A DNA stretch of 54,665 bases, taken from NCBI GenBank assembly GCA_013298875.1, contig JAAFJH010000005.1, forward strand, positions 1-54,665. The letters run 5' to 3'. Positions 14,074 to 54,665 of the stretch are shown here, piece by piece. The notes below the pieces were generated by a model, which did not search any database, was not told the origin of the DNA, and saw nothing but the letters and a program-made list of their open reading frames with translations. The position numbers were made by a program, and so were the translations under genes. This DNA is from Synechococcales cyanobacterium bin2.concoct.b11b12b14.033. GTDB taxonomy: Bacteria; Cyanobacteriota; Vampirovibrionia; Caenarcaniphilales; Caenarcanaceae. Position 1 is the first letter of the stretch. Every line of letters begins with the position of its first letter.

Positions 14074-14144
14074 AATTACTAGAATTTTCATAAATGTCTG
14101 TCATTGGCTTGTCTCATTGAGTTGGCAGATAAATTAATTATTTC
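14074..14144. repeat. Relic copy of the purL 3' end
   Basis: These 71 bases match 14737-14807 at 65 positions without gaps. On the minus strand this copy reads IINLSANSMRQANDRHL and stop, the end of PurL, followed by the start MKILVI of the next gene. It is therefore a fossil purL end lying about 660 bases beyond the true one. The two copies bracket the small genes at 14189 and 14434. Confidence 0.9.
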
Positions 14145-14188: not shown

Positions 14189-14458
14189 ATGCAAGCAGAT
14201 TATCAATTTTGGGTATTAGTAGGAAGCCAAATTTTATCAGCTGGAGCTTTATTCCTACAGTTAAATAATAAAATTGATTCTAAATTTGATTCTCTTGCCA
14301 AAGAAGTAACCGAAATAAAAATTGAACAAGCAAAACAAAGTGGAGAAATTCACAGACTTGGCGATAAAGTTGATCATTTAAACCAGAGAATTGATTTTGT
14401 TTATAATCTTCTTCCAATGCCAAAACTAGCTATTCAAGTCCCCGTGCAAGATAGTTGA
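14189..14458 (+). CDS. Small membrane-anchored coiled-coil protein
   Basis: This 89-residue protein has one N-terminal membrane helix (FWVLVGSQILSAGALFLQL, residues 7-25) followed by a heptad-rich helix (residues 28-72: KIDSKFDSLAKEVTEIKIEQ, then LGDKVDHLNQRIDFVYNLL). Its build matches the tandem proteins at 22264 and 22590. A TATAAT at about 14150 could be its -10 box. Its 3' end overlaps the convergent gene at 14434 by 25 bases. It lies inside the segment bordered by the purL-end duplication. Function unknown. Confidence 0.6.
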   Translation: MQADYQFWVLVGSQILSAGALFLQLNNKIDSKFDSLAKEVTEIKIEQAKQSGEIHRLGDKVDHLNQRIDFVYNLLPMPKLAIQVPVQDS

Positions 14459-14754
14459 AAATACTTTTTTAAAAAAATTATTATTTCGCCAATAAGTACC
14501 CATAAACTCATCAATCCAGCGGAAATAATAAAATTAGAAATAAATGGAAATTTTTCTTCTTCAATCTTTGATTTTAAGTATTCTCTAAAAGGTTGTACTG
14601 ACAAAAACAAAATGCAAATAACCATAGGAAAATTTAATACTAAATATCTAATATTCTCGCAACCCACGTTTCCACAAAGCAAAAAATAAAATGACCCAAC
14701 GATAGGCCACAAAAAACCGGCAATCAAACCAGCAACAATTACTAGAATCTTCAT
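14434..14754 (-). CDS. Small three-helix membrane protein
   Basis: This 106-residue hydrophobic protein has about three membrane helices: residues 2-22 (ILVIVAGLIAGFLWPIVGSF), about 37-56 (LVLNFPMVICILFLSV) and about 75-95 (FIISAGLMSLWVLIGEIIIF). I do not recognise the family. Its ATG overlaps the purL stop (ATGA), so it would be translated after purL, yet its first codons are part of the duplicated purL-end block. It was therefore probably joined to purL by the duplication or insertion. It overlaps the convergent gene at 14189 at the 3' ends. Confidence 0.55.
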   Translation of the reverse strand: MKILVIVAGLIAGFLWPIVGSFYFLLCGNVGCENIRYLVLNFPMVICILFLSVQPFREYLKSKIEEEKFPFISNFIISAGLMSLWVLIGEIIIFLKKYFQLSCTGT

Positions 14755-14807
14755 AAATGTCTATCATTGGCTTGCTTCATTGAGTCAGCAGATAAATTAA
14801 TTATTTC
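14737..14807. repeat. Functional purL 3' end, second copy of the 71-bp repeat
   Basis: This block covers the last purL codons (NLSADSMKQANDRHL) and the first codons of the gene at 14434. It is the intact partner of the relic at 14074-14144, with six mismatches and no gaps. Confidence 0.9.
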
Positions 14808-16967
14808 CTCTGAATTTTCAGAATTATTATTTAGTTTGACGATTAATTGCGAATTACTTATTACTTTGCCAATTTTCTCAATTTTGAGCTTTTCTGATGA
14901 TTCAAACTCCATGAATTCGGCGGCTGTAATTAAAGCTCTACTTTGGGATTCCCCAATTAAACAAGAATCTAATCTTAAACTAATATCTTTATTAAGGTTA
15001 ATTTCTGCTCCCAAAGACTTATTTGCGGAATTCATGACCGACTCCATTAAAGTTAATAAAAGTCCATTTTCGCTTAAATCATGGGCGGAGTGAATATAAC
15101 CTTTATTGATTTGCTCAATTAGAAATTCATATAAAGCTTTTTCTTTATTCCAGTCTAGCTTTGGACAGTCAATTTCATTAAAAGTTTCTCCAACTAGCCA
15201 AATATTATCGCCCGCATTTTTAAAACTAATACTAGGCGACTTTTGATAATCCTCAACCACTCCGACTATTCCAATAACTGGTGTTGGTAAAATCTGCTGG
15301 CCATCAGCAAACTCATTATACAAGCTAACGTTTCCACCGGTTACCGCAATTTCTAATTCCCTACAAGCACTAGCAATGCCTTTAACACTTTCTTGCAAAA
15401 ACCAAAACGATTCTGGCTTTTCAGGATTGCCAAAGTTTAAATTATTGGTAATTGCCAAAGCTGTTCCACCAATACAAGCTATATTCCGGGCGGCTTCCGC
15501 TACCGCAATTTGTGAACCCAAAAATGGATTTGATTTAACATAATGAGGGTTTCCATCTACGCTAACTGCCAAACCACGTTTTGAATACTTACCGTCTGGC
15601 TTTTTTAAACGTAAAAGGGCAGCACTGGCCATACCCGGTTTTAAAATAGTATTTAATTGTACTTCTTGGTCAAATTGCTTATATATCCAAGCTCTCGAAC
15701 AACCATTGTCTGAACTTAATATACTTAAAGCTAGTTTTTCGATAATTTCTTTTTTAGGCTCTAAATCTGGTTTTCCGAGTATATTAACCGTATTTTTAGG
15801 AGCCATTGCTTCCCGCATATAAATTGGTGCTTGGTCCGTTAAAGCTTTAGGCGGCACTTCCACTACTTTCTGTCCGTGATGATAAATACTAACTAGTTTA
15901 GTGTCGGTAACTTTCCCAATCACCACAGCAGGCAGATTATGCTTTTCAAAAATTTTAATTAATTCGTCTTGTGTGCCTTGCTTAGCAACTAAAAGCATTC
16001 TTTCCTGCGATTCTGAAAGTAAATATTCATGAGTTTCTAATTTACCTCTGGTTGGCACTAAATCCAAATTAACTTCAAAACCAACCTCCCCTTTGGCACT
16101 CATTTCCGTAAAGGCACAAGTTAAACCAGCCGCTCCCATATCTTGTGATGCCACAACAAAACCAGTTTTAAAAGCCTCTAAACACCCTTCAATTAATAAT
16201 TTACCCAAAAAAGGATCACCAATTTGCACAGCTGGTCTGTTTTTATTGCTCTTTTCAGTTAGTCCGCTACTAGCAAAAGCTGCACCACCCAGCCCATCTT
16301 TCCCTGTTTCAGAGCCGACATAAATGATTGGATTTCCTATACCCATTGCCCCAGACGGAATTGGATTTTCTGTTTCTAATAAACCAATACACATAGCATT
16401 GACGAGCGGATTTTCTTTATAACTATCATCAAAATATAATTGCCCACCAATTGTAGGTATGCCAGTACAGTTGCCATAATGGCCAATCCCAGCAATTGCA
16501 TTTGTGAGTAAATAATAAGACTTTTCGTCCGTTGGAGAACCAAAAGACAAACTATTTAAAAAAGCAATTGGCCTGGCACCGAGGGTTAAAATATCTCGCA
16601 AAATTCCGCCTGCCCCAGTAGCTGCACCTTGAAAAGGCTCAATCGCAGTTGGTCTATTATGCGATTCAATTTTAAACGCAATTTTAATTCCTTCTTCAAC
16701 ATCAATAATACCGGCATTCTCACCAGGCCCCGCCAAGATTTTAACTTTTGGGCTAGTGGTCGGAAAAAGTTTTAGAAGGGGTTTTGAATTTTTATAAGCA
16801 CAATGTTCTGACCACATAGCACCAAACATATAAATTTCATTTTCATTCGGTTCACGCTCTAAAAGCTTGACAATCAATTCATATTCATAAGTTGATAGTT
16901 TAGCCTTACTTAATATATTTCTAAGTTTTAGCTTTTCAGATTTGTCGAGCGTAAAGCTTCTATCCAT
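14751..16967 (-). CDS. purL: Phosphoribosylformylglycinamidine synthase subunit PurL
   Basis: PurL converts FGAR to FGAM with ATP and ammonia in de novo purine synthesis, working with PurQ and PurS in lineages that have the small form. At 738 residues this is the small PurL. Motifs include MWSEHCAYKNSKP, then GPGENAGIID, ESHNRPTAIEPFQGAATGAG and GLTCAFTEMSAKG. The second half repeats the AIRS-like fold (NNLNFGNPEKPESFW, AVTGGNVSLYNE). Its start overlaps the SprT-like gene by 8 bases and its stop overlaps the small membrane gene. The 3' end is duplicated at 14074-14144. Confidence 0.95.
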   Translation of the reverse strand: MDRSFTLDKSEKLKLRNILSKAKLSTYEYELIVKLLEREPNENEIYMFGAMWSEHCAYKNSKPLLKLFPTTSPKVKILAGPGENAGIIDVEEGIKIAFKIESHNRPTAIEPFQGAATGAGGILRDILTLGARPIAFLNSLSFGSPTDEKSYYLLTNAIAGIGHYGNCTGIPTIGGQLYFDDSYKENPLVNAMCIGLLETENPIPSGAMGIGNPIIYVGSETGKDGLGGAAFASSGLTEKSNKNRPAVQIGDPFLGKLLIEGCLEAFKTGFVVASQDMGAAGLTCAFTEMSAKGEVGFEVNLDLVPTRGKLETHEYLLSESQERMLLVAKQGTQDELIKIFEKHNLPAVVIGKVTDTKLVSIYHHGQKVVEVPPKALTDQAPIYMREAMAPKNTVNILGKPDLEPKKEIIEKLALSILSSDNGCSRAWIYKQFDQEVQLNTILKPGMASAALLRLKKPDGKYSKRGLAVSVDGNPHYVKSNPFLGSQIAVAEAARNIACIGGTALAITNNLNFGNPEKPESFWFLQESVKGIASACRELEIAVTGGNVSLYNEFADGQQILPTPVIGIVGVVEDYQKSPSISFKNAGDNIWLVGETFNEIDCPKLDWNKEKALYEFLIEQINKGYIHSAHDLSENGLLLTLMESVMNSANKSLGAEINLNKDISLRLDSCLIGESQSRALITAAEFMEFESSEKLKIEKIGKVISNSQLIVKLNNNSENSEEIINLSADSMKQANDRHL

Positions 16968-22263: not shown

Positions 22264-22587
22264 ATGAATAATATACAAATAGTTATACAAGCTTGGCAGT
22301 TAGCAATCGCAGTCTTGGCCATTGGTTTAACTTTTGTAGCTATTTTGGTAAGTTCTTTTTGGGCTTTCTGGAATATTATCGATAAGCGGTTTGATAGGTT
22401 TGAATCCGAAATGAGATCAGAATTAAAAGAAATAAAGGAAGCTGTTTCGGGGCTGAAAACGGAGCAGGCCGTTCAAAAGAGAGAAATTGAACATCTATCC
22501 CGTGAGCAAGAACAACAAAGAAATAGGCTTGAACAAATGGTTGACTTATTTAAACAACGTATGACAAATCCCGACGCAGGAGTATAA
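22264..22587 (+). CDS. Small membrane coiled-coil protein, tandem copy 1
   Basis: This 107-residue protein has one N-terminal membrane helix (residues 10-38, QAWQLAIAVLAIGLTFVAIL then SSFWAFW) and a long heptad-rich helix from about residue 40 to 103 (ELKEIKEAVSGLKTEQAVQK, REIEHLSREQEQQRNRLEQM). It is nearly identical to the next gene, from which it is separated by two bases. The architecture recalls small phage or holin-associated membrane coils and also the protein at 14189, but no family can be named. Function unknown. Confidence 0.7.
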   Translation: MNNIQIVIQAWQLAIAVLAIGLTFVAILVSSFWAFWNIIDKRFDRFESEMRSELKEIKEAVSGLKTEQAVQKREIEHLSREQEQQRNRLEQMVDLFKQRMTNPDAGV

Positions 22588-22589
22588 AA

Positions 22590-22916
22590 ATGAATAATAT
22601 ACAAATAGTTATACAAGCTTGGCAATTAGCAATCGCAGTAGTGGCCATTGGTTTAACTTTTGTCGCTATTTTGGTAAGTTCCTTTTGGGCTTTCTGGAAT
22701 ATTATTGATAAGAGGTTTGATAAGATCGATAAACAATTTGATAAAGTAGAAGTTGATCTCAAAGAAATAAAAGAAGCTGTTTCGGGACTAAAGACAGAAC
22801 AGGCTGTTCAGAAAAGAGAAATTGAGCATTTATCCCGTGAGCAAGAACAACAAAGAAATAGACTGGAGCAAATGGTTGACTTATTTAAACAACGCATGAC
22901 AAATCCCGAAATTTAA
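22590..22916 (+). CDS. Small membrane coiled-coil protein, tandem copy 2
   Basis: This 108-residue protein is a tandem duplicate of the preceding one, offset by 326 bases. The membrane helix and the C-terminal coil are almost unchanged; the difference lies in the middle, where copy 2 has KIDKQFDKVEVDL in place of RFESEMRSEL. Two copies in one transcript could form homo- or hetero-oligomers through their coils. Its stop overlaps the convergent gene at 22913 by four bases. Function unknown. Confidence 0.7.
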   Translation: MNNIQIVIQAWQLAIAVVAIGLTFVAILVSSFWAFWNIIDKRFDKIDKQFDKVEVDLKEIKEAVSGLKTEQAVQKREIEHLSREQEQQRNRLEQMVDLFKQRMTNPEI

Positions 22917-24642: not shown

Positions 24643-25311
24643 TCAACTTAAAAATATAGCCTTGCCTAGTCTTAACATGGTAGAACCAGCCTTAATCGCT
24701 TCAGGGTAATCCCCGGACATGCCCATTGAAAGCTCAGTTAAATTTAAATTAGATAATTTTTCGGCATTTATTTTTTCTTTTAAAGTTTTTAATTCAACAA
24801 ATAGTTCATAGTTAGACGCTGGGCTTAAACCAAAAGGCAAAATAGTCATTAGGCCAATAATATTTAAATTATTTAATTCGCTAATTGAAACTAATGAATT
24901 GAGCAAATCTGTCGGCAGAAAACCACTTTTATTATCATCGGGAGCCAATTTGACTTGTAATAGAATTTTATTTTTATTTTGTAAATTCAGATCTCCGGCC
25001 AATTGATTTAATTTAATTAAAATATCCAAACTATCGGCTGAATGAATATAAGTAAAGTTCAAAAGTATTTGTTTAGCTTTATTAGTTTGCAATTTGCCAA
25101 TAAAATGCCAAGTTAAATTTAAGCTGTTTAACTCCTGTTGTTTAATTAAAGCTTCTTGCAGGCGGCTCTCGGCAAAATGTTGAAAACCCATTTCATATGC
25201 AATTTTAATACTTTCGATCGATTCACGTTTACTAACTGCAATTAAAAGAATTTGCTTTGATAATCCTTCAATTTGATTTTTGAGAATTTTAACTTTATCG
25301 GCAAACATCAA
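24643..25311 (-). CDS. yggS: YggS/PLPBP-family pyridoxal phosphate homeostasis protein
   Basis: This family binds pyridoxal 5'-phosphate without a known catalytic reaction and helps maintain free PLP. The PLP-binding lysine is K28 in LLIAVSKRES. Other family motifs are HFAESRLQEALIKQ, TWHFIGKLQTNKAK and the C-terminal ELSMGMSGDYPEAIKAGSTM (phosphate-binding). At 222 residues it is normal. Its 5' end overlaps the lipoprotein gene at 25295 by 17 bases, so the two are one operon. Confidence 0.9.
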   Translation of the reverse strand: MMFADKVKILKNQIEGLSKQILLIAVSKRESIESIKIAYEMGFQHFAESRLQEALIKQQELNSLNLTWHFIGKLQTNKAKQILLNFTYIHSADSLDILIKLNQLAGDLNLQNKNKILLQVKLAPDDNKSGFLPTDLLNSLVSISELNNLNIIGLMTILPFGLSPASNYELFVELKTLKEKINAEKLSNLNLTELSMGMSGDYPEAIKAGSTMLRLGKAIFLS

Positions 25312-26023
25312 TTAATACTTGATTGGATGAGTAAGTTACTGGTAAACCTTCCGGATAATTATAATTCATCAATAAATACCAATTTGTTTCATGACAATAA
25401 TCTTTTAGACGGTCTTTAAGCAAAGCTTTTTTATTTTGCATTTTTACCATTAAGTCCGCAAAGCCATTCGTTTGAGTAAAATCAAATTTATTGACATTTA
25501 TTTTCTTTAAACCTTTAAAAGGCGATTTTTCTTCTAGATAAGTTAACAATTGTATATTGGCTCCTTCAGAGCGAGAAAAGGGCGGTTTATCCCAAGTGAA
25601 GAAAATTTTATCCGCTTCAGAAGTATCTCTAAAAGCTCTCAAATCCCAATCAAAAGTTAAAATAGCTGGCAAATACAAATCCATATTAAAATCACTGGAC
25701 AAATTAGCTTTTATGAAAGGGGGTTTTTGCTTCAGTTCAGGTCTTTCGCCGTAAGCATAAATAATCACAAAAGGACCATCTTTAACTTCGCTCTTTTTAA
25801 TTTTAAATTCATAATCAGTATATTCATTCAGCTGAGTGCGATATTGAATTGAGCCGTCAGCATTACTTAATAAAAGTTCTTGTCCTTTTTCTGCTCCAAA
25901 AAATGCGCCCTGAATGGTATAAACTGTCTCAGATTTAGGTTTTATTTTTTGATTACAACCATTCAAAAATCCTAAAATTAAAAATAATGAGAATGCAGAA
26001 AATAAAGATAAATATTTTTTCAC
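25295..26023 (-). CDS. Predicted lipoprotein of unknown function
   Basis: This 242-residue protein begins at GTG (26021-26023) with KKYLSLFSAFSLFLILGF and a lipobox LNGC (Cys about 23), so it should be lipid-anchored. The mature part has TVYTIQGAFFGAEKGQELLL and many beta-strand-like segments; it ends with DVCR. I do not recognise the family. The -10 box TATAAT at 26061-26066 and the start codon lie inside a block that is duplicated at 26656-26755. It overlaps yggS downstream. Confidence 0.65.
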   Translation of the reverse strand: MKKYLSLFSAFSLFLILGFLNGCNQKIKPKSETVYTIQGAFFGAEKGQELLLSNADGSIQYRTQLNEYTDYEFKIKKSEVKDGPFVIIYAYGERPELKQKPPFIKANLSSDFNMDLYLPAILTFDWDLRAFRDTSEADKIFFTWDKPPFSRSEGANIQLLTYLEEKSPFKGLKKINVNKFDFTQTNGFADLMVKMQNKKALLKDRLKDYCHETNWYLLMNYNYPEGLPVTYSSNQVLIDVCR

Positions 26024-26114
26024 GGTCTAAAAGGCAAAGTCAGAAAGTTTTATGAAACCAATTATAAATACTTTACACTAAAAACGAAAACCTATTTTCG
26101 GAGAAGTTTTGTCT
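26015..26114. repeat. Direct repeat, left copy: lipoprotein promoter and start
   Basis: The block matches 26656-26755 at 91 of 94 gap-free positions (offset 641). It contains the lipoprotein GTG start, the -10 box TATAAT (minus strand, 26061-26066) and a perfect hairpin CGAAAA-CCTA-TTTTCG at 26085-26100. The two copies bracket the toxin-antitoxin module. Confidence 0.92.
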
Positions 26115-26173: not shown

Positions 26174-26443
26174 TTAAGGAAATAATCGGTAAAAACCTTC
26201 CCTGCTAGAAATTCTCAATAATTCTAAAATCTCTGAGTCTGCTTTTATACCAATACGATAATTATAATCAAACTTAATTCTATAATAATCATTTGTACCG
26301 GATATTTTCTCTAGATTATTGATTTGAAGCAAAGAGCCAGCTTAAGCAATGTTTTCGATAACTTTTTGAATTTTCTCCCTAATTCGATTATCTTTAATCC
26401 TTTGAAAATCCTTCAGAAAAGACCTTTCAACTTTGAATTTCAT
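26174..26443 (-). pseudogene. RelE-family toxin with premature stop
   Basis: From ATG at 26441-26443 the frame reads MKFKVERSFLKDFQRIKDNR and, after a TAA at 26342-26344 (codon 34), continues in frame with LLQINNLEKI, then DYYRIKFDYNYRIGIKAD and FYRLFP to a second stop at 26174. The whole is a normal 89-codon RelE/mRNA-interferase fold; the single nonsense codon, probably from GAA or CAA, should inactivate it. It overlaps the antitoxin stop (ATGA). Confidence 0.85.
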
Positions 26444-26664
26444 ACTCTTTCATTTAAAGTTTTTGATAATTCTTCTTCTGTTACCCAATCACCTTTTTCA
26501 TGAGCTTGCTTACAGGCCAAATAAAAAGTTAATTCTTCTAATTCTTTTTGATTTTTAAGAGCAAATTCCTCGAAAAAAATTAACTTAGCTTCACTAGAAC
26601 TAACTTCAAAAAGGGAAAATAAACTTTTACCGATATTTAAGTCTTGTTCAGTCATATTTTTCAC
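26440..26664 (-). CDS. Antitoxin-like partner of the broken RelE toxin
   Basis: This protein is 74 residues from GTG 26664, or 71 from the internal ATG at 26653-26655 (MTEQDLNIGK). It is acidic with helical segments (EAKLIFFEEFALKNQKELEE) and ends EELSKTLNERV. The family is not clear to me; its overlap by four bases with a RelE-type frame and its size support an antitoxin role. Its first codons (GTG AAA AA) and promoter come from the duplicated lipoprotein-start block, so it is now expressed from a borrowed promoter. Confidence 0.65.
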   Translation of the reverse strand: MKNMTEQDLNIGKSLFSLFEVSSSEAKLIFFEEFALKNQKELEELTFYLACKQAHEKGDWVTEEELSKTLNERV

Positions 26665-26755
26665 AGTCTAAAAGACAAAGTCAGAAAGTTTCATGAAACC
26701 AATTATAAATACTTTACACTAAAAACGAAAACCTATTTTCGGAGAAGTTTTGTCT
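26656..26755. repeat. Direct repeat, right copy: antitoxin promoter and start
   Basis: This is the second copy of the block at 26015-26114, with three mismatches. It carries the same -10 box TATAAT (minus strand, 26702-26707) and the same hairpin, 38 bases upstream of the GTG at 26664. Confidence 0.92.
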
Positions 26756-49870: not shown

Positions 49871-51085
49871 ATGTTTAAAAAAATTAGTATTCAAAATTTC
49901 CGCGGAATTAAAGATTTAACCATTGATGACTTTGGCAAAGTTAATTTATTAGTCGGTAAAAATAATAGTTGCAAAACCAGCGTGCTTGAAGCTTTGTATA
50001 TTTCATTAGGTCCAAACAATCCACTTTTATTTCATGTAGCAAATAGTTTAAGAGGATTAACATCAATAAAGGTAACAGGAGGGGCTAGTCCAAATAAACA
50101 GCTTTTGGATGGAATGGAAAATTCTTTGAAAGTTATTTTTTATAATCTAAATTTTGAAAACAATATTTCTATAGAAACTAATTTCAAGGATTCAAAAGAA
50201 AAAAGAGAAATTATCATTAAACCTATAATTTCGACAGATCCCAGAGCTGATTTTACTCAAACTTCTCTTTCTATCTCTACAGAAGTCAAAAAATATTGGA
50301 AAGGGTTAGATTTTATATTTTCTCGTAGCGGATTAGATAAAAAGAACAAAAATAAGAAAATTCAGTTTGAATCTCAAGCTCTTTTAGAAATAAATACTTC
50401 TCCCTCAAATAGTCAAGTAATAGATCAACAATTAGTACAATTAAGGGCTAAACTAAGCGATAAATATATAAAAATTTTAGAAGATAATAAATTAAAGGAA
50501 ATAAATGGTCGAATTATAAATCATAATTTCTCAAATGATTCTTTTAGCTCATCTGAATTGGAAGGAGCTTTTAATACTATTAAACAAAAAAAGAAAAAAA
50601 TAGAATTAATAAAGGTACTACAAAAAATAGAGCCAAAAATCCAAGATATTGATTTTACTGATTCATTTATTGTAGATATTGGACTAGATGAAATGATTAG
50701 ATTAGAAACTTTAGGGCAAGGTACTATCAAATTATTTTATTTAGCGTGTATTTTAATGGCTGATGAGCAAAATATTGTAAACGGAGTTTTATTTATCGAT
50801 GAAATAGAAAATGGATTACACTACACGGCTCAAAATATAGTATGGGAATTCTTATTTGATATTGCAAAAGAAAAAAACATACAAATATTTGCGACTACTC
50901 ATTCCGAAGATTGTGAGCTTGCTTTTATTGAAGAAGCAAAGAAAAGAGAAAATAAGGATGATGAAAAATTACGGGATATCAAATTATTTAGGCTTGAAAA
51001 AGAACAAAACGACAAGATAAAAATAAGAAATTATAACTTTAAATCTTTAAGTGCTTGGTCTGAAGAACCTTGGGAGATTAGGTAA
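49871..51085 (+). CDS. OLD/ABC-type AAA ATPase of a two-gene system
   Basis: This 404-residue protein starts ISIQNFRGIKDLTIDDFGKV, then the Walker A-like GKNNSCKT at residues 29-36, in which Cys34 replaces the usual Gly. The ABC-type signature is LETLGQGTIKLFYLACI (about 278-294), Walker B is VLFIDEIENGLH (about 311-322) and the switch His is in IFATTHSEDCE. This is the AAA_15/AAA_21 class that includes OLD, GajA and AriA-like ATPases. Its C-terminus carries no TOPRIM domain; instead the next gene provides one, overlapping by one base (TAATG). It sits between an aminotransferase gene and uvrC. A defence function is inferred. Confidence 0.85.
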   Translation: MFKKISIQNFRGIKDLTIDDFGKVNLLVGKNNSCKTSVLEALYISLGPNNPLLFHVANSLRGLTSIKVTGGASPNKQLLDGMENSLKVIFYNLNFENNISIETNFKDSKEKREIIIKPIISTDPRADFTQTSLSISTEVKKYWKGLDFIFSRSGLDKKNKNKKIQFESQALLEINTSPSNSQVIDQQLVQLRAKLSDKYIKILEDNKLKEINGRIINHNFSNDSFSSSELEGAFNTIKQKKKKIELIKVLQKIEPKIQDIDFTDSFIVDIGLDEMIRLETLGQGTIKLFYLACILMADEQNIVNGVLFIDEIENGLHYTAQNIVWEFLFDIAKEKNIQIFATTHSEDCELAFIEEAKKRENKDDEKLRDIKLFRLEKEQNDKIKIRNYNFKSLSAWSEEPWEIR

Positions 51086-51786
51086 TGGAAAATAAAAGAA
51101 AGGAAGATACAAAATGGCCTCAAACAAGGAAAATAATAGTTGTTGAAGGTGGAGATGATAAAACATTCATTCAGGAGTTAATTAAAGAAATATACAAAAT
51201 AAAAAAAGAACAAATTGAAACTGATCTTGGTATTAGCTTTCTGGTTGTTGGAACAAATAATACTTTCTTAAAGGATGAAAAATATAAAGACTGGCTCATC
51301 GATTTTCTGAGAAAGGACTTTTTAAAAATTGCATTTGTTTTTGATTTAGATGTAAACCCATTTGAGAAATCAATTCAGTTACTGGAGGAAGAAGTATTAA
51401 ATGATTCAAATCTTTTGGATAAAGTTATAGTTTTACCAATAAAGCCATATCAATTTTCTAGCTCTGGTATTGGAATTTGTCCAATCTATTACCAAGATAT
51501 TGCAAAAGGTTGCTTAGAAGAACTTTGTATTCACTTAATTCAAGAACAAAATACTGAATTGTATAATTTTGGTATTGATTTTATAAGCAAAGCAGAAAGC
51601 CTTTCAATAAATAATTCTAAAAATTGGAAAGATAGGTACAAAAAGCAACTTGCTTTAATGCTCATTACTAATAAAAATTTAAGATTCTGTTCAACACCTG
51701 GTATCGCTGTGGAAAAAGGATTAATAAAATTAAATAGTGAAATATTAAATACTTTAAAACTATTTTTACAGGAATTTACTAAATGA
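51085..51786 (+). CDS. TOPRIM-like (DUF3226/DUF4435-type) partner protein
   Basis: This 233-residue protein shows TOPRIM-type landmarks: KIIVVEGGDDKTFIQELI with the acidic E21 and D24/D25, and the metal-binding strand IAFVFDLDVNP with D87 and D89. The combination and its position after an ABC-type ATPase match DUF3226-like partners; AriB of PARIS (DUF4435) has a similar layout. TOPRIM domains cut or nick nucleic acid using divalent metal, so this is the probable effector. It is translationally coupled to the ATPase gene and ends 3 bases before uvrC. Confidence 0.78.
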   Translation: MENKRKEDTKWPQTRKIIVVEGGDDKTFIQELIKEIYKIKKEQIETDLGISFLVVGTNNTFLKDEKYKDWLIDFLRKDFLKIAFVFDLDVNPFEKSIQLLEEEVLNDSNLLDKVIVLPIKPYQFSSSGIGICPIYYQDIAKGCLEELCIHLIQEQNTELYNFGIDFISKAESLSINNSKNWKDRYKKQLALMLITNKNLRFCSTPGIAVEKGLIKLNSEILNTLKLFLQEFTK

Positions 51787-51789
51787 AAA

Positions 51790-53640
51790 GTGAAACCAAT
51801 GAAAGACTTTAGCCATATACCAAATAATGCTGGTATTTATATTTTTAAAGGTTTGGATCATACTCCAATTTATATTGGTAAAGCTATTAATTTACGCAAT
51901 CGGGTGCGTTCTTACTGGAATGAAACGTCGTGGAGGGACAGGCCAAAATTAGCCATTTTAGTACCGCAAATATCAGACATTGAAACAATTATTACCCAAA
52001 ATGAAAAAGAAGCTTTAATCCTGGAAGCTAGCTTAATTTACAAGCATCAACCGAAGTACAATGTTTTACTGAAAGATAATAAAAGTTTTCCGTGGATTGG
52101 TCTAACTTATGGTGAAGAATTTCCGCGAATTATTCCAGTGAGAGACTTAAAATGGGCTAAGCGTAAATATCCGAAAATTAAATTATTTGGTCCTTATACT
52201 GATTCCGGAAATATGTATAAAACTTTGCAAACGGCTAGGCAATTATTTCCGCTTCGTAAAAGACCAACTCCTCTTTTTAAAGACAGACCTTGTTTGAATT
52301 ATCATTTGGGACAATGTTTGGGGCCTTGCCAAGCCTTGGTTAGCTCTGAAGATTATAATTTACTACTCAAAGAAATTGAATTATTTTTAAATGGAAAACA
52401 TGATGATTTAATCGCTCGCTTAAAGGAAAAAATGTGGCTAGCTTCCGAGAATTTAAATTATGAACAAGCTGCTAAATGCCGAGACCAAATTAAAATTTTG
52501 GATAAAGCTTTGGAAAGTCAACGTATAATTATGGATAATCCAGACTGTGAGCGAGATATTATTGGTTTTGCAAATGATGAGAAGAATTTATGTTTGCAAA
52601 TTTTTAAAATGAGAGCTGGCAAATTAATTGGTAGGGAGGCTTTTAATGCTGAGTTAAATGAATTACAAACCTTAGCGGAAGCAATTTCATCGATTATCGA
52701 ACAAGCTTATTTAATCAGACAAATGGAAGATATTCCGAAAGAAATTATTATTCAAAATGAAATAGCAAATTTAATTACTGATTTAAGTCAGAGTATTGTT
52801 GAAGAGCAGACTTTTGAAAAGAAATTTAGTAGTTTATTGAGTAGTTTAGCCAAAAAAAATATACAAGTTAATTTCCCAAAACGTGGAGACAAAAAAGAAC
52901 AAATTGAATTAGCAACTTTCAATGCCAGTCAGCAATTGCAAGCCCAAAGTAAACAACAAACTAAAGCTTTAATTGTGCTAGAATCTTTGCAAGAAATTTT
53001 AGAAATTGAAAAACTTCCGGTAAATATTGATTGTTTTGATATTTCTCATTTACAAGGAACTGAGGTTGTCGCAAGCTGTGTGAGGCTCAAAAATGGTTTT
53101 CCAGATAAGTCTAAATATCGCAAAATAAAATTAACTGTTGATCAAAATAATGACTTTTTCTCGATAAAAGAAGCTGTTTTTAGGCGTTATCAAAAGCAAA
53201 AAGACTTACCAGATTTAATTTTAATTGATGGAGGAAAAGGCCAATTAAGCTCAGCTTTGGAAGCAATTAATGAATTAAACTTAACTGAAATTCCTTTATT
53301 TTCATTAGCTAAAAAAGAAGAAGAAATTTTTAATATTGAAAATGAAAAAATACTTTTACCTAAAAATTCACCGGCCTTACAGCTTTTACAAAGAGCCAGA
53401 GATGAGGCTCACCGTTTTGCTTTAACTTATAATCGACAAAGACGCAGTAAAGTACTTAAAGCTAGTTTTTTGGATGATATTGTCGGAGTGGGAGCGGTTT
53501 TAAAAGCTAATATTTTAAATAATTTTACGGTTAAAGAATTAAAAGCTGCCCCACCTCAAGAATTACAAAATAAACTTAAAATTAGTGCTAAGAGAGCCGA
53601 CAAATTATGGAAAAATATACATTTGAAAACTGAATACTAA
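51790..53640 (+). CDS. uvrC: Excinuclease ABC subunit C
   Basis: UvrC makes both incisions in nucleotide-excision repair. The N-terminal GIY-YIG nuclease is visible as NNAGIYIFKGLDHTPIYIGK. The UvrB-binding UVR motif is near residues 205-235 (ENLNYEQAAKCRDQIKIL). The RNase H-like half shows NIDCFDISHLQGTEVVASCV and LILIDGGKGQLSSAL; a helix-hairpin-helix end follows (DIVGVGAVLKANILNNF). At 616 residues it is complete. The start may be GTG 51790 or ATG 51799. It lies 3 bases after the TOPRIM gene. A decayed copy of its last 32 codons lies at 54406. Confidence 0.95.
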   Translation: MKPMKDFSHIPNNAGIYIFKGLDHTPIYIGKAINLRNRVRSYWNETSWRDRPKLAILVPQISDIETIITQNEKEALILEASLIYKHQPKYNVLLKDNKSFPWIGLTYGEEFPRIIPVRDLKWAKRKYPKIKLFGPYTDSGNMYKTLQTARQLFPLRKRPTPLFKDRPCLNYHLGQCLGPCQALVSSEDYNLLLKEIELFLNGKHDDLIARLKEKMWLASENLNYEQAAKCRDQIKILDKALESQRIIMDNPDCERDIIGFANDEKNLCLQIFKMRAGKLIGREAFNAELNELQTLAEAISSIIEQAYLIRQMEDIPKEIIIQNEIANLITDLSQSIVEEQTFEKKFSSLLSSLAKKNIQVNFPKRGDKKEQIELATFNASQQLQAQSKQQTKALIVLESLQEILEIEKLPVNIDCFDISHLQGTEVVASCVRLKNGFPDKSKYRKIKLTVDQNNDFFSIKEAVFRRYQKQKDLPDLILIDGGKGQLSSALEAINELNLTEIPLFSLAKKEEEIFNIENEKILLPKNSPALQLLQRARDEAHRFALTYNRQRRSKVLKASFLDDIVGVGAVLKANILNNFTVKELKAAPPQELQNKLKISAKRADKLWKNIHLKTEY

Positions 53641-53973
53641 TTACCGAAAGATAAATTTGGACAATCTTTAGTTATTTAAAATGAAAGAATTTCAAAAGCG
53701 GTTAACAGGCTAGTAGAAGTGATTTTTAAATTTAAACTGTTTTTCTTGCTGGTTTCCTTTAAACTTTAATTTAGTAATAAATTTTTTAATGAAGAAGCTT
53801 TTCTTCTATAGCTTGGAATTGATCAAAAAAACTCGATTATATTTTTTCTTAAAACTTTATTAATTTCTCAAGGTTTTATCAAGAAATTAAAGTACATTTT
53901 TAATCCCGTAAATAAACTTTAATATGAGCGTAGAAAAATATTTTCATATTATAGTTTGCAACTTAATTAATCA
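53641..53973. other. Non-coding gap between uvrC and the next gene
   Basis: No gene, tRNA or repeat is recognised in these 333 AT-rich bases. A small hairpin AGAAG-CTTTT-CTTCT lies near 53791-53806 and CATATTATAGT near 53946 could serve as a -10 region for the gene at 53974. Neither is strong. Confidence 0.4.
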
Positions 53974-54405
53974 ATGAAAATATCACAAACTATAATAAAA
54001 CCGTTACAGGTTAGGTCTCAAAGAAAAGCGACATTTAACCATAATCCTGATCATCCTGAAAGCTTTTCTCCTTCTAAACCACCAGAATTTGCTGTACATG
54101 CTGTAAGACCGACCGAAGAAATGACTTTACCTCAGCTCAATACACGTTTACTTGAAGCAAAAGAATTAAAAGCAAGAACTGAATCTAACTTAAAAGACTA
54201 TGATTCGATTGACAAAAAATTTGACGATTTTCTGACAGGAAAGCAAAACGTATTACCCCTAACTTATACGAGAACGCTCGATGAATTAGGATCTACGGCA
54301 ATTACGATGGATCTGGCTAAAAGGTCTTTCGAAAGAATCATAGAGAAATTGGATTTAGTAGTAGCTGAATTAAACCGAGAAATAAAGAAAAGAGAAAAAA
54401 GATAG
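53974..54405 (+). CDS. Helical protein of unknown function beyond uvrC
   Basis: This 143-residue protein has a disordered, Pro-rich N-terminus (MKISQTIIKPLQVRSQRK, then SFSPSKPPEFAV) and two charged helices (TLPQLNTRLLEAKELKARTE and RSFERIIEKLDLVVAELNRE) that should form a helical hairpin or coil. I do not recognise the family. Its stop (TAG) is followed in the same frame by a relic of the uvrC 3' end, so the gene lies between the functional uvrC end and its copy. Its start resembles the starts at 83 and 33097. Confidence 0.55.
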   Translation: MKISQTIIKPLQVRSQRKATFNHNPDHPESFSPSKPPEFAVHAVRPTEEMTLPQLNTRLLEAKELKARTESNLKDYDSIDKKFDDFLTGKQNVLPLTYTRTLDELGSTAITMDLAKRSFERIIEKLDLVVAELNREIKKREKR

Positions 54406-54498
54406 AAAGCTTCCCGACTCCAAGAACTGCAAAGCAAATTAAAAATCGGTGCAAAAAGAGCGAACCAGCTATGAAAGAACATGCAATTGAAAGCTAAA
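54406..54498 (+). pseudogene. Relic of the uvrC 3' end
   Basis: The frame reads KASRLQELQSKLKIGAKRAN, then QL, a TGA, and KNMQLKAK. It aligns without gaps to the last 32 residues of UvrC (KAAPPQELQNKLKISAKRAD, then KLWKNIHLKTEY), with 19 of 31 positions identical. The TGA replaces the Trp TGG. The relic is about 860 bases from the uvrC original and begins directly after the stop of the 143-residue protein. Confidence 0.85.
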
Positions 54499-54543
54499 AT
54501 TTACTCATTAAGTTCTTTTCATATTATCTAGGAACTTATTTGC

Positions 54544-54665
54544 TTAGGCAGCTTGATTATTATCTTTTATTTCTGAGCGAGGAAAACGTGGTACAAAAAA
54601 GTGACTTTTAATAATAGAAACTTCACTAGCTAAAAACTCATTTTGCTCTTGCATTCTTTCCATTT
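54544..54665 (-). CDS. Partial gene at the window edge
   Basis: The minus frame is open from the edge to TAA 54544-54546 and reads MERMQEQNEFLASEVSIIKS, then HFFVPRFPRSEIKDNNQAA. Met codons near the edge could be internal. The first part looks helical. Too little remains to identify it. Confidence 0.5.
   Translation of the reverse strand, partial: MERMQEQNEFLASEVSIIKSHFFVPRFPRSEIKDNNQAA

Follow-up and report, generated by a model that had tools for sequence, protein, structure and literature searches.

Displaced 3' ends of uvrC and other genes beside inserted genes in an uncultured lineage

The window analysed here, 54,665 nucleotides that form one whole contig (C91) of the genome we call G000, from an uncultured bacterium related to the cyanobacteria, carries behind its intact uvrC gene a second, degraded copy of the gene's own 3' end, with a small orphan gene between the two. 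We examined 15 such relics of gene 3' ends in three genomes of the family, with inserts that hold the true end and the relic 0.4-4 kb apart. We describe these duplications, their recurrence and limits, the codon-position pattern of the differences between copies and the cargo that they enclose; more than a dozen such scars suggest recurrent acquisition of genes without an integrase. For uvrC we lean, with moderate confidence, towards homology-facilitated illegitimate recombination ('sequential displacement') as the process that would have brought together two uvrC ends from related lineages.

The uvrC locus and its displaced 3' end

In the translation of 53542-54663, the end of uvrC reads KAAPPQELQNKLKISAKRADKLWKNIHLKTEY* and the stretch 54406-54498 reads KASRLQELQSKLKIGAKRANQL*KNMQLKAKI (Table 1). 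As a preliminary description of this DNA had proposed, the second stretch is a decayed copy of the UvrC C-terminus, with 19 of 31 residues identical and one tryptophan codon now TGA, and it follows in the same frame directly after the TAG of the 143-codon reading frame. The alignment scores 85 with BLOSUM62, and the DNA matches at 67 of 93 positions without any indel. This is well beyond chance, because a tblastn search of the window with UvrC found the relic as the sole significant second place (E 1.4e-5, or 4.9e-8 with a C-terminal probe) and a UvrC search of the whole of G000 found just two places, uvrC itself and the relic.

Table 1. Features of the window, with position, strand and the evidence or description for each.
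Feature	Position	Strand	Remarks
purL 3'-end relic, 71 nt	14074..14144	-	91.5% identical to 14737-14807
purL, second host gene in the window	14751..16967	-	NCBIfam PurL equivalog above cut-off
5' region of lipoprotein-like gene (25295-26023), gene-proximal copy	26016..26114	-	
Second copy of the lipoprotein-like gene 5' region	26657..26755	-	97% identical, 99 nt
Toxin-antitoxin-like pair	26440-26664, 26174-26332	-	outer repeat copy joined at start codon
uvrC, intact, 616 aa	51790..53640	+	Pfam UvrC_RNaseH_dom 3e-49, UVR, GIY-YIG; 94% aa identity to G001
True uvrC 3' end, cargo-proximal repeat copy	53542..53640	+	translation, alignment
AT-rich spacer, 23% G+C, no recognisable gene	53641..53973	.	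between uvrC and inserted gene
Inserted 143-codon orphan gene	53974..54405	+	predicted disordered N-terminus and two long helices
Displaced (relic) uvrC 3' end	54406..54498	+	72% DNA identity, TGG->TGA
3' part of small membrane/coiled-coil gene	54540..54665	-	exact 126-b overlap with contig C18 start; similar copy on C13

The inserted gene has no relative in the family, in viral contigs or in plasmids, and its product gave no Pfam (at the cut-off), NCBIfam or PADLOC match. Searching 194 genomes of the class returned three marginal matches (E 0.003-0.008), which lie within large open reading frames. An AlphaFold2 model of the protein (pLDDT 72) places the helices at residues 52-88 and 102-142, and a structure search with it gave no convincing match in the PDB; a family assignment was dropped, as sequence, profile and structure searches gave nothing convincing. 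Beyond the relic, the right side of the window is an assembly-graph repeat boundary and not a biological end, because of the exact overlap with C18; in the assembly graph, C91 and C18 are probably next to each other. A membrane and coiled-coil reading frame of ~107 aa is duplicated in tandem at 22264-22916 (+), and small reading frames like it occur at 14189-14458, at the contig end and on contigs C19 and C35 of G001, apparently as a dispersed gene family.

The sister genome G001 (same genus, Ca. Caenarcaniphilales; 716 kb surveyed, against 587 kb of G000) carries behind its own uvrC a run of three more uvrC tails, none of which is a second uvrC. The first comes after 3.2 kb holding ORF6N, Bro-N and unknown genes, the second after a PIN-domain toxin-antitoxin pair and the third after a gene for a peptidase of family S51 (Pfam). 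Successive displacement events predict arrays of such ends, and these three extra tails, which are not independent of each other, form one. The preliminary description had suggested looking in relatives for the joint occurrence of the 143-residue gene and the relic; instead, the gene is an orphan of G000 while tails recur with other cargo, so the tail belongs to the site and not to the gene, and it is the cargo that changes. On the other side of uvrC, directly upstream, lie an AAA ATPase gene and a DUF3226/TOPRIM-like gene (49871-51085 and 51085-51786, both +); in PADLOC they match the candidates AbiLi/PDC-M38A and (weakly) PDC-M38B. G001 has a pair of this kind at the same place, but a divergent one, despite the 94% identity of UvrC.

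The mismatches between the uvrC relic and the true end fall 9/3/14 on codon positions 1/2/3. In a comparison with G001 the relic is an outgroup to the true ends of both species (distances 0.30 and 0.34, against 0.16), so a copy that had decayed in place should predate their split; the sister has no counterpart of the G000 relic. Taken alone, the relic-specific changes (8/3/11) are compatible with in-place decay, and the true uvrC end shows no mosaic signal against that of G001, with identity at 0.86-0.92 all along. The tail here is either an arrival on foreign DNA or the resident end, the older of the two. A phage source for it was rejected, as the C-terminal region of uvrC has no match in viral contigs. 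Of the 'fossil' in the preliminary description, then, the duplication of the uvrC end stands, and the notion that the copy began as identical and decayed where it lies is not well supported.

Gene-end relics across genes and genomes

We surveyed the genomes for nearby copies of gene ends, counting the genes with a 3'-end relic outside open reading frames, downstream or upstream. Downstream and upstream counts were 5 and 1 among 491 genes of G000, 13 and 6 among 599 of G001, and 2 and 0 among 15 of G003, where the count covers 20 kb; many of these numbers are small, and the survey is strict enough to miss the old uvrC tail of this window. Four other genomes, together about 715 kb, gave none (0 of 132, 97, 309 and 17 genes in G004, G008, G006 and G002, respectively). 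The hosts of the relics are uvrC (two genomes), purL, apt (two genomes), murA, lptC, flhB, a gene for a flavin-dependent amine oxidase, one for a flavin reductase, cdaA and others, the names lptC and apt coming from a reading of the sequence, without a family match.

Among the inserts seen, genes for toxin-antitoxin, restriction and other defence systems are common, and single orphans and genes of metabolic type occur as well. At apt, the cargo in both species is a cytosine methylase with other defence-like genes; at murA it is a CobW-type gene, at flhB a YafQ-type toxin fragment, at purL a 106-aa membrane and an 89-aa coiled-coil reading frame, and at cdaA, in the third genome, a DUF433/DUF5615 pair. 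HicAB, ParE with a Phd-like partner and an ImmA-type peptidase also lie between long repeats, and a restriction-modification pair of Eco47II type lies between repeats of 93 nt. The direct repeats of target sequence that border the inserts are variable in length, as in insertion with long target duplication, where they measure tens to hundreds of bp. No site-specific recombinase was found among the cargo proteins scanned, and no common attachment sequence among the loci, whose host genes are unrelated and whose tails differ. A literature search on toxin-antitoxin cassettes behind housekeeping genes, or on duplication of 3' ends, found nothing relevant.

Repeats of other kinds are present as well. 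One dispersed repeat of ~47 nt (L085:16923-16969 and many contigs) has more than 25 copies in G001 and about a dozen in G000. GxxExxY-like, ParDE-like and other small genes (L082 9306-9863, L083 1836-2684, G000 C102 28001-29071) are bracketed by multi-copy intergenic repeats of 100-165 nt, which are not gene tails; these genes are possibly another kind of mobile cassette.

Across the 15 relics, the match between true end and relic runs from 48-126 nt before the stop codon to about the stop, a range of lengths apparently narrower than random junctions would give. Its left limit is abrupt and lies inside the gene, and its right limit fades at the stop: pooled identity falls from 0.87-0.92 ahead of the stop to 0.57 over the 15 nt that follow it and to at most 0.37 farther on. 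The right limit is not placed uniformly (KS p = 5e-7), which fits homology that stops where the conserved coding sequence does. Mismatches pooled over the 13 other relics fall 7/11/42 on the three codon positions; changes specific to the relics (6/6/18; p = 0.008 against an even distribution) cannot be told apart from the pattern of functional divergence between the two species (18/14/44; Fisher p = 1). A decaying copy of an identical target should lose homology without regard to the stop codon, with changes more evenly spread over codon positions. Because the right limit lies near the stop and the differences concentrate at third positions, these alignments suggest that the copies diverged as functional gene ends and were later joined by recombination between related lineages.

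Three loci are informative in G000 and G001 together. The toxin-antitoxin-like pair at 26.2-26.7 kb stands upstream of the lipoprotein-like gene, between the two 99-nt copies, and in G000 it is cut at its start codon, exactly where the outer copy begins, so that it lacks its own upstream region. In G001 the same pair (96 and 87% aa identity) lies adjacent to the same gene with its upstream region intact and no second copy, a contrast that fits an import with its anchor in the shared gene and its far end ragged. The toxin of this pair is weakly RelE-like (NCBIfam E 0.0024, below cut-off), and its frame at 26174-26332 (-), when compared with the G001 toxin of 89 aa, is broken by an in-frame TAA. 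Behind the amine-oxidase gene, the two species have the tail junction in common and differ in cargo, a TM2-like protein in one and a HicA-like reading frame in the other. At apt, the methylase and the right junction are common to both species, yet each tail resembles the gene of its own genome; the copies thus exchange sequence after insertion.

Possible origins of the duplications

In the displacement that we favour, a relative's DNA would bring its own version of the gene end together with a different downstream gene. Homology on one side would let the incoming DNA recombine with the resident gene, and the far side, which has none, would be joined illegitimately within the last ~130 nt of the resident copy. 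The incoming piece would supply a complete 3' end, so that the host gene would stay whole, and the spare end would be left as a tail behind the new cargo. Repeated events would then build arrays of the form uvrC-cargo-tail-cargo-tail-cargo-tail, as in G001, and defence and toxin-antitoxin cargo would be frequent presumably because it is hard to lose. The donor origin, the one-sided homology and the order of events are inferred, and at this uvrC site either of the two ends may be the newcomer.

The scrambled gene order between G000 and G001 (47 of 139 neighbours kept, at a median ortholog identity of ~86% aa) and the presence of ComEC speak for displacement, as does a search of the family for Ku-type end joining, which found none; that route was dropped. 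Against it, the scrambling leaves no empty site with contiguous flanks demonstrable; no clean empty site was found in the sister, where the hosts are often single-copy and their right flanks rearranged. A donor arrangement, that is, a gene end with the same cargo and no tail, is not known for uvrC itself. Since apt ends and relics are alike within each genome, displacement there needs later gene conversion. The narrow range of relic lengths also counts against displacement, as do the repeats at purL and cdaA, which extend a few codons into the first cargo gene. Missing mismatch repair was rejected as a cause, as MutS is present in G000, G001, G003 and G004, and for the same reason recombination of DNA that is 10-30% diverged is not explained by a loss of mismatch repair. 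None of the findings on MutS, Ku and ComEC decides the mechanism.

Among the alternatives, insertion with long target duplication is possible, if unlikely: cargo would enter a staggered or duplicated target of ~50-150 bp, the copies would be identical at first, the outer one would decay, and only insertions that leave the gene whole would survive. The overall anatomy is the one that PMC3031569 and PMC1643837 outline for restriction-modification systems in Helicobacter. Several loci point the same way, namely the Eco47II-type pair between its repeats, the long repeats that are 97-100% identical, the duplications that span gene 5' ends or sit between genes, and purL and cdaA, where the repeat enters the first cargo gene by a few codons. 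However, the right limit pinned near the stop codon argues against it, as do the third-position bias of the mismatches, with its small counts, and the 26-kb cargo, which stands beside the same gene in G001 without any duplication. If a plain target duplication were followed by exchange of the true end for a different allele, the third-position bias could likewise result. The arrays and the exchange of cargo would be explained best, among the readings weighed here, by putative cassettes addressed by homology. Recombination between copies would release a circle of cargo plus one ~70-nt gene tail, and in another cell this circle would re-enter at that gene's 3' end, the tail acting like a recombination site and the arrays growing without an integrase. 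Tails of this length are near the minimum for RecA-type recombination. The different cargos split by tails of the same gene in the G001 uvrC array fit such a cycle, as do the different cargos before one junction at the amine-oxidase gene and the exchange between copies implied by the apt tails; yet no circle, exact excision product or repeated re-insertion of the same cargo was seen, and tails at the same gene differ in their left boundary, so that we hold this cycle to be decidedly improbable.

It could also be proposed that mobile elements integrated site-specifically at gene 3' ends, with the tail as attachment site and the integrases since lost, for the 3'-end position and the regenerated gene end are typical of integrase-borne elements. 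Against this, the cargo proteins scanned include no recombinase, the host genes and repeats are mutually unrelated, boundaries vary from copy to copy, and the viral contigs searched lack the C-terminal region of uvrC. A mobile element with a site-specific integrase was rejected on the first of these points and on the lack of a common site, and we regard this origin as the least probable of all. Hardly more credible is a relic left by a tandem uvrC paralogue, or an artefact of assembling mixed strains. These genomes are draft metagenome assemblies, in which strain mixtures can mis-join, but the relic is always just the last 30-40 codons, the pattern is found in three genomes and absent from others, and mis-assembly is unlikely because the apt and amine-oxidase junctions recur in two genomes. 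A paralogous uvrC was rejected, as none was found among the relatives searched: a complete second uvrC-like gene stands beside uvrC in 0 of 60 relatives, 57 of which gave a uvrC match. The preliminary description had read the locus as a uvrC 3' end duplicated so that its copies border the inserted gene, and not as the remnant of a second complete uvrC, and this reading holds.

Significance and comparison with known systems

The addition of genes without damage to old ones and without an integrase has so far mostly been inferred from single loci. Here, in one uncultured lineage, housekeeping genes bear more than a dozen scars, whose cargo includes defence and toxin-antitoxin genes. A clear diagnostic, homology that stops at the stop codon together with divergence at third codon positions, allows one-sided homologous import to be tested in one genome after another, and any genome can be searched for the tail signature. 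Gene 3' ends might, further, be the landing sites of an integrase-free cassette economy, in which cargo would travel with a ~70-nt tail, move in and out by homology and form arrays at hot spots such as uvrC. We think this rather doubtful; if true, such an economy would be one of the means by which defence and toxin-antitoxin genes are carried and gene order is scrambled.

The closest parallels to the displacement that we favour come from the effector genes of the Vibrio cholerae type VI secretion system (T6SS), for which homology-facilitated illegitimate recombination, or sequential displacement, has been described (Kirchberger et al., 2017; PMC5361080), and from the C-terminal displacement of Rhs genes, as cited in that paper. 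There, as here, a module is added 3' of a conserved sequence by one-sided homology and without an integrase, and the older 3' ends with their partner genes are pushed downstream, so that arrays build up. What is displaced in Vibrio T6SS and Rhs genes, however, is the variable end of a polymorphic toxin gene, the part that encodes the toxin, whereas our loci are anchored in housekeeping genes, the products of which are unchanged, and many unrelated genes of one genome are involved. Restriction-modification systems inserted with long target duplication (Nobusato et al., 2000, as reported in PMC3031569 and PMC1643837) share with our loci selfish or defence genes between long, variable direct target repeats, and the Eco47II-type pair fits that description. 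Our repeats differ in that they end near the host stop codon and their copies differ as functional genes do, and the cargo also includes toxin-antitoxin modules, single orphans and genes of metabolic type. Finally, integrons and other site-specific cassette arrays resemble the arrays seen here in having unrelated gene cassettes separated by a repeated sequence, but here there is neither an integrase nor a conserved site, and what is repeated is the tail of the adjacent host gene, different at each locus.
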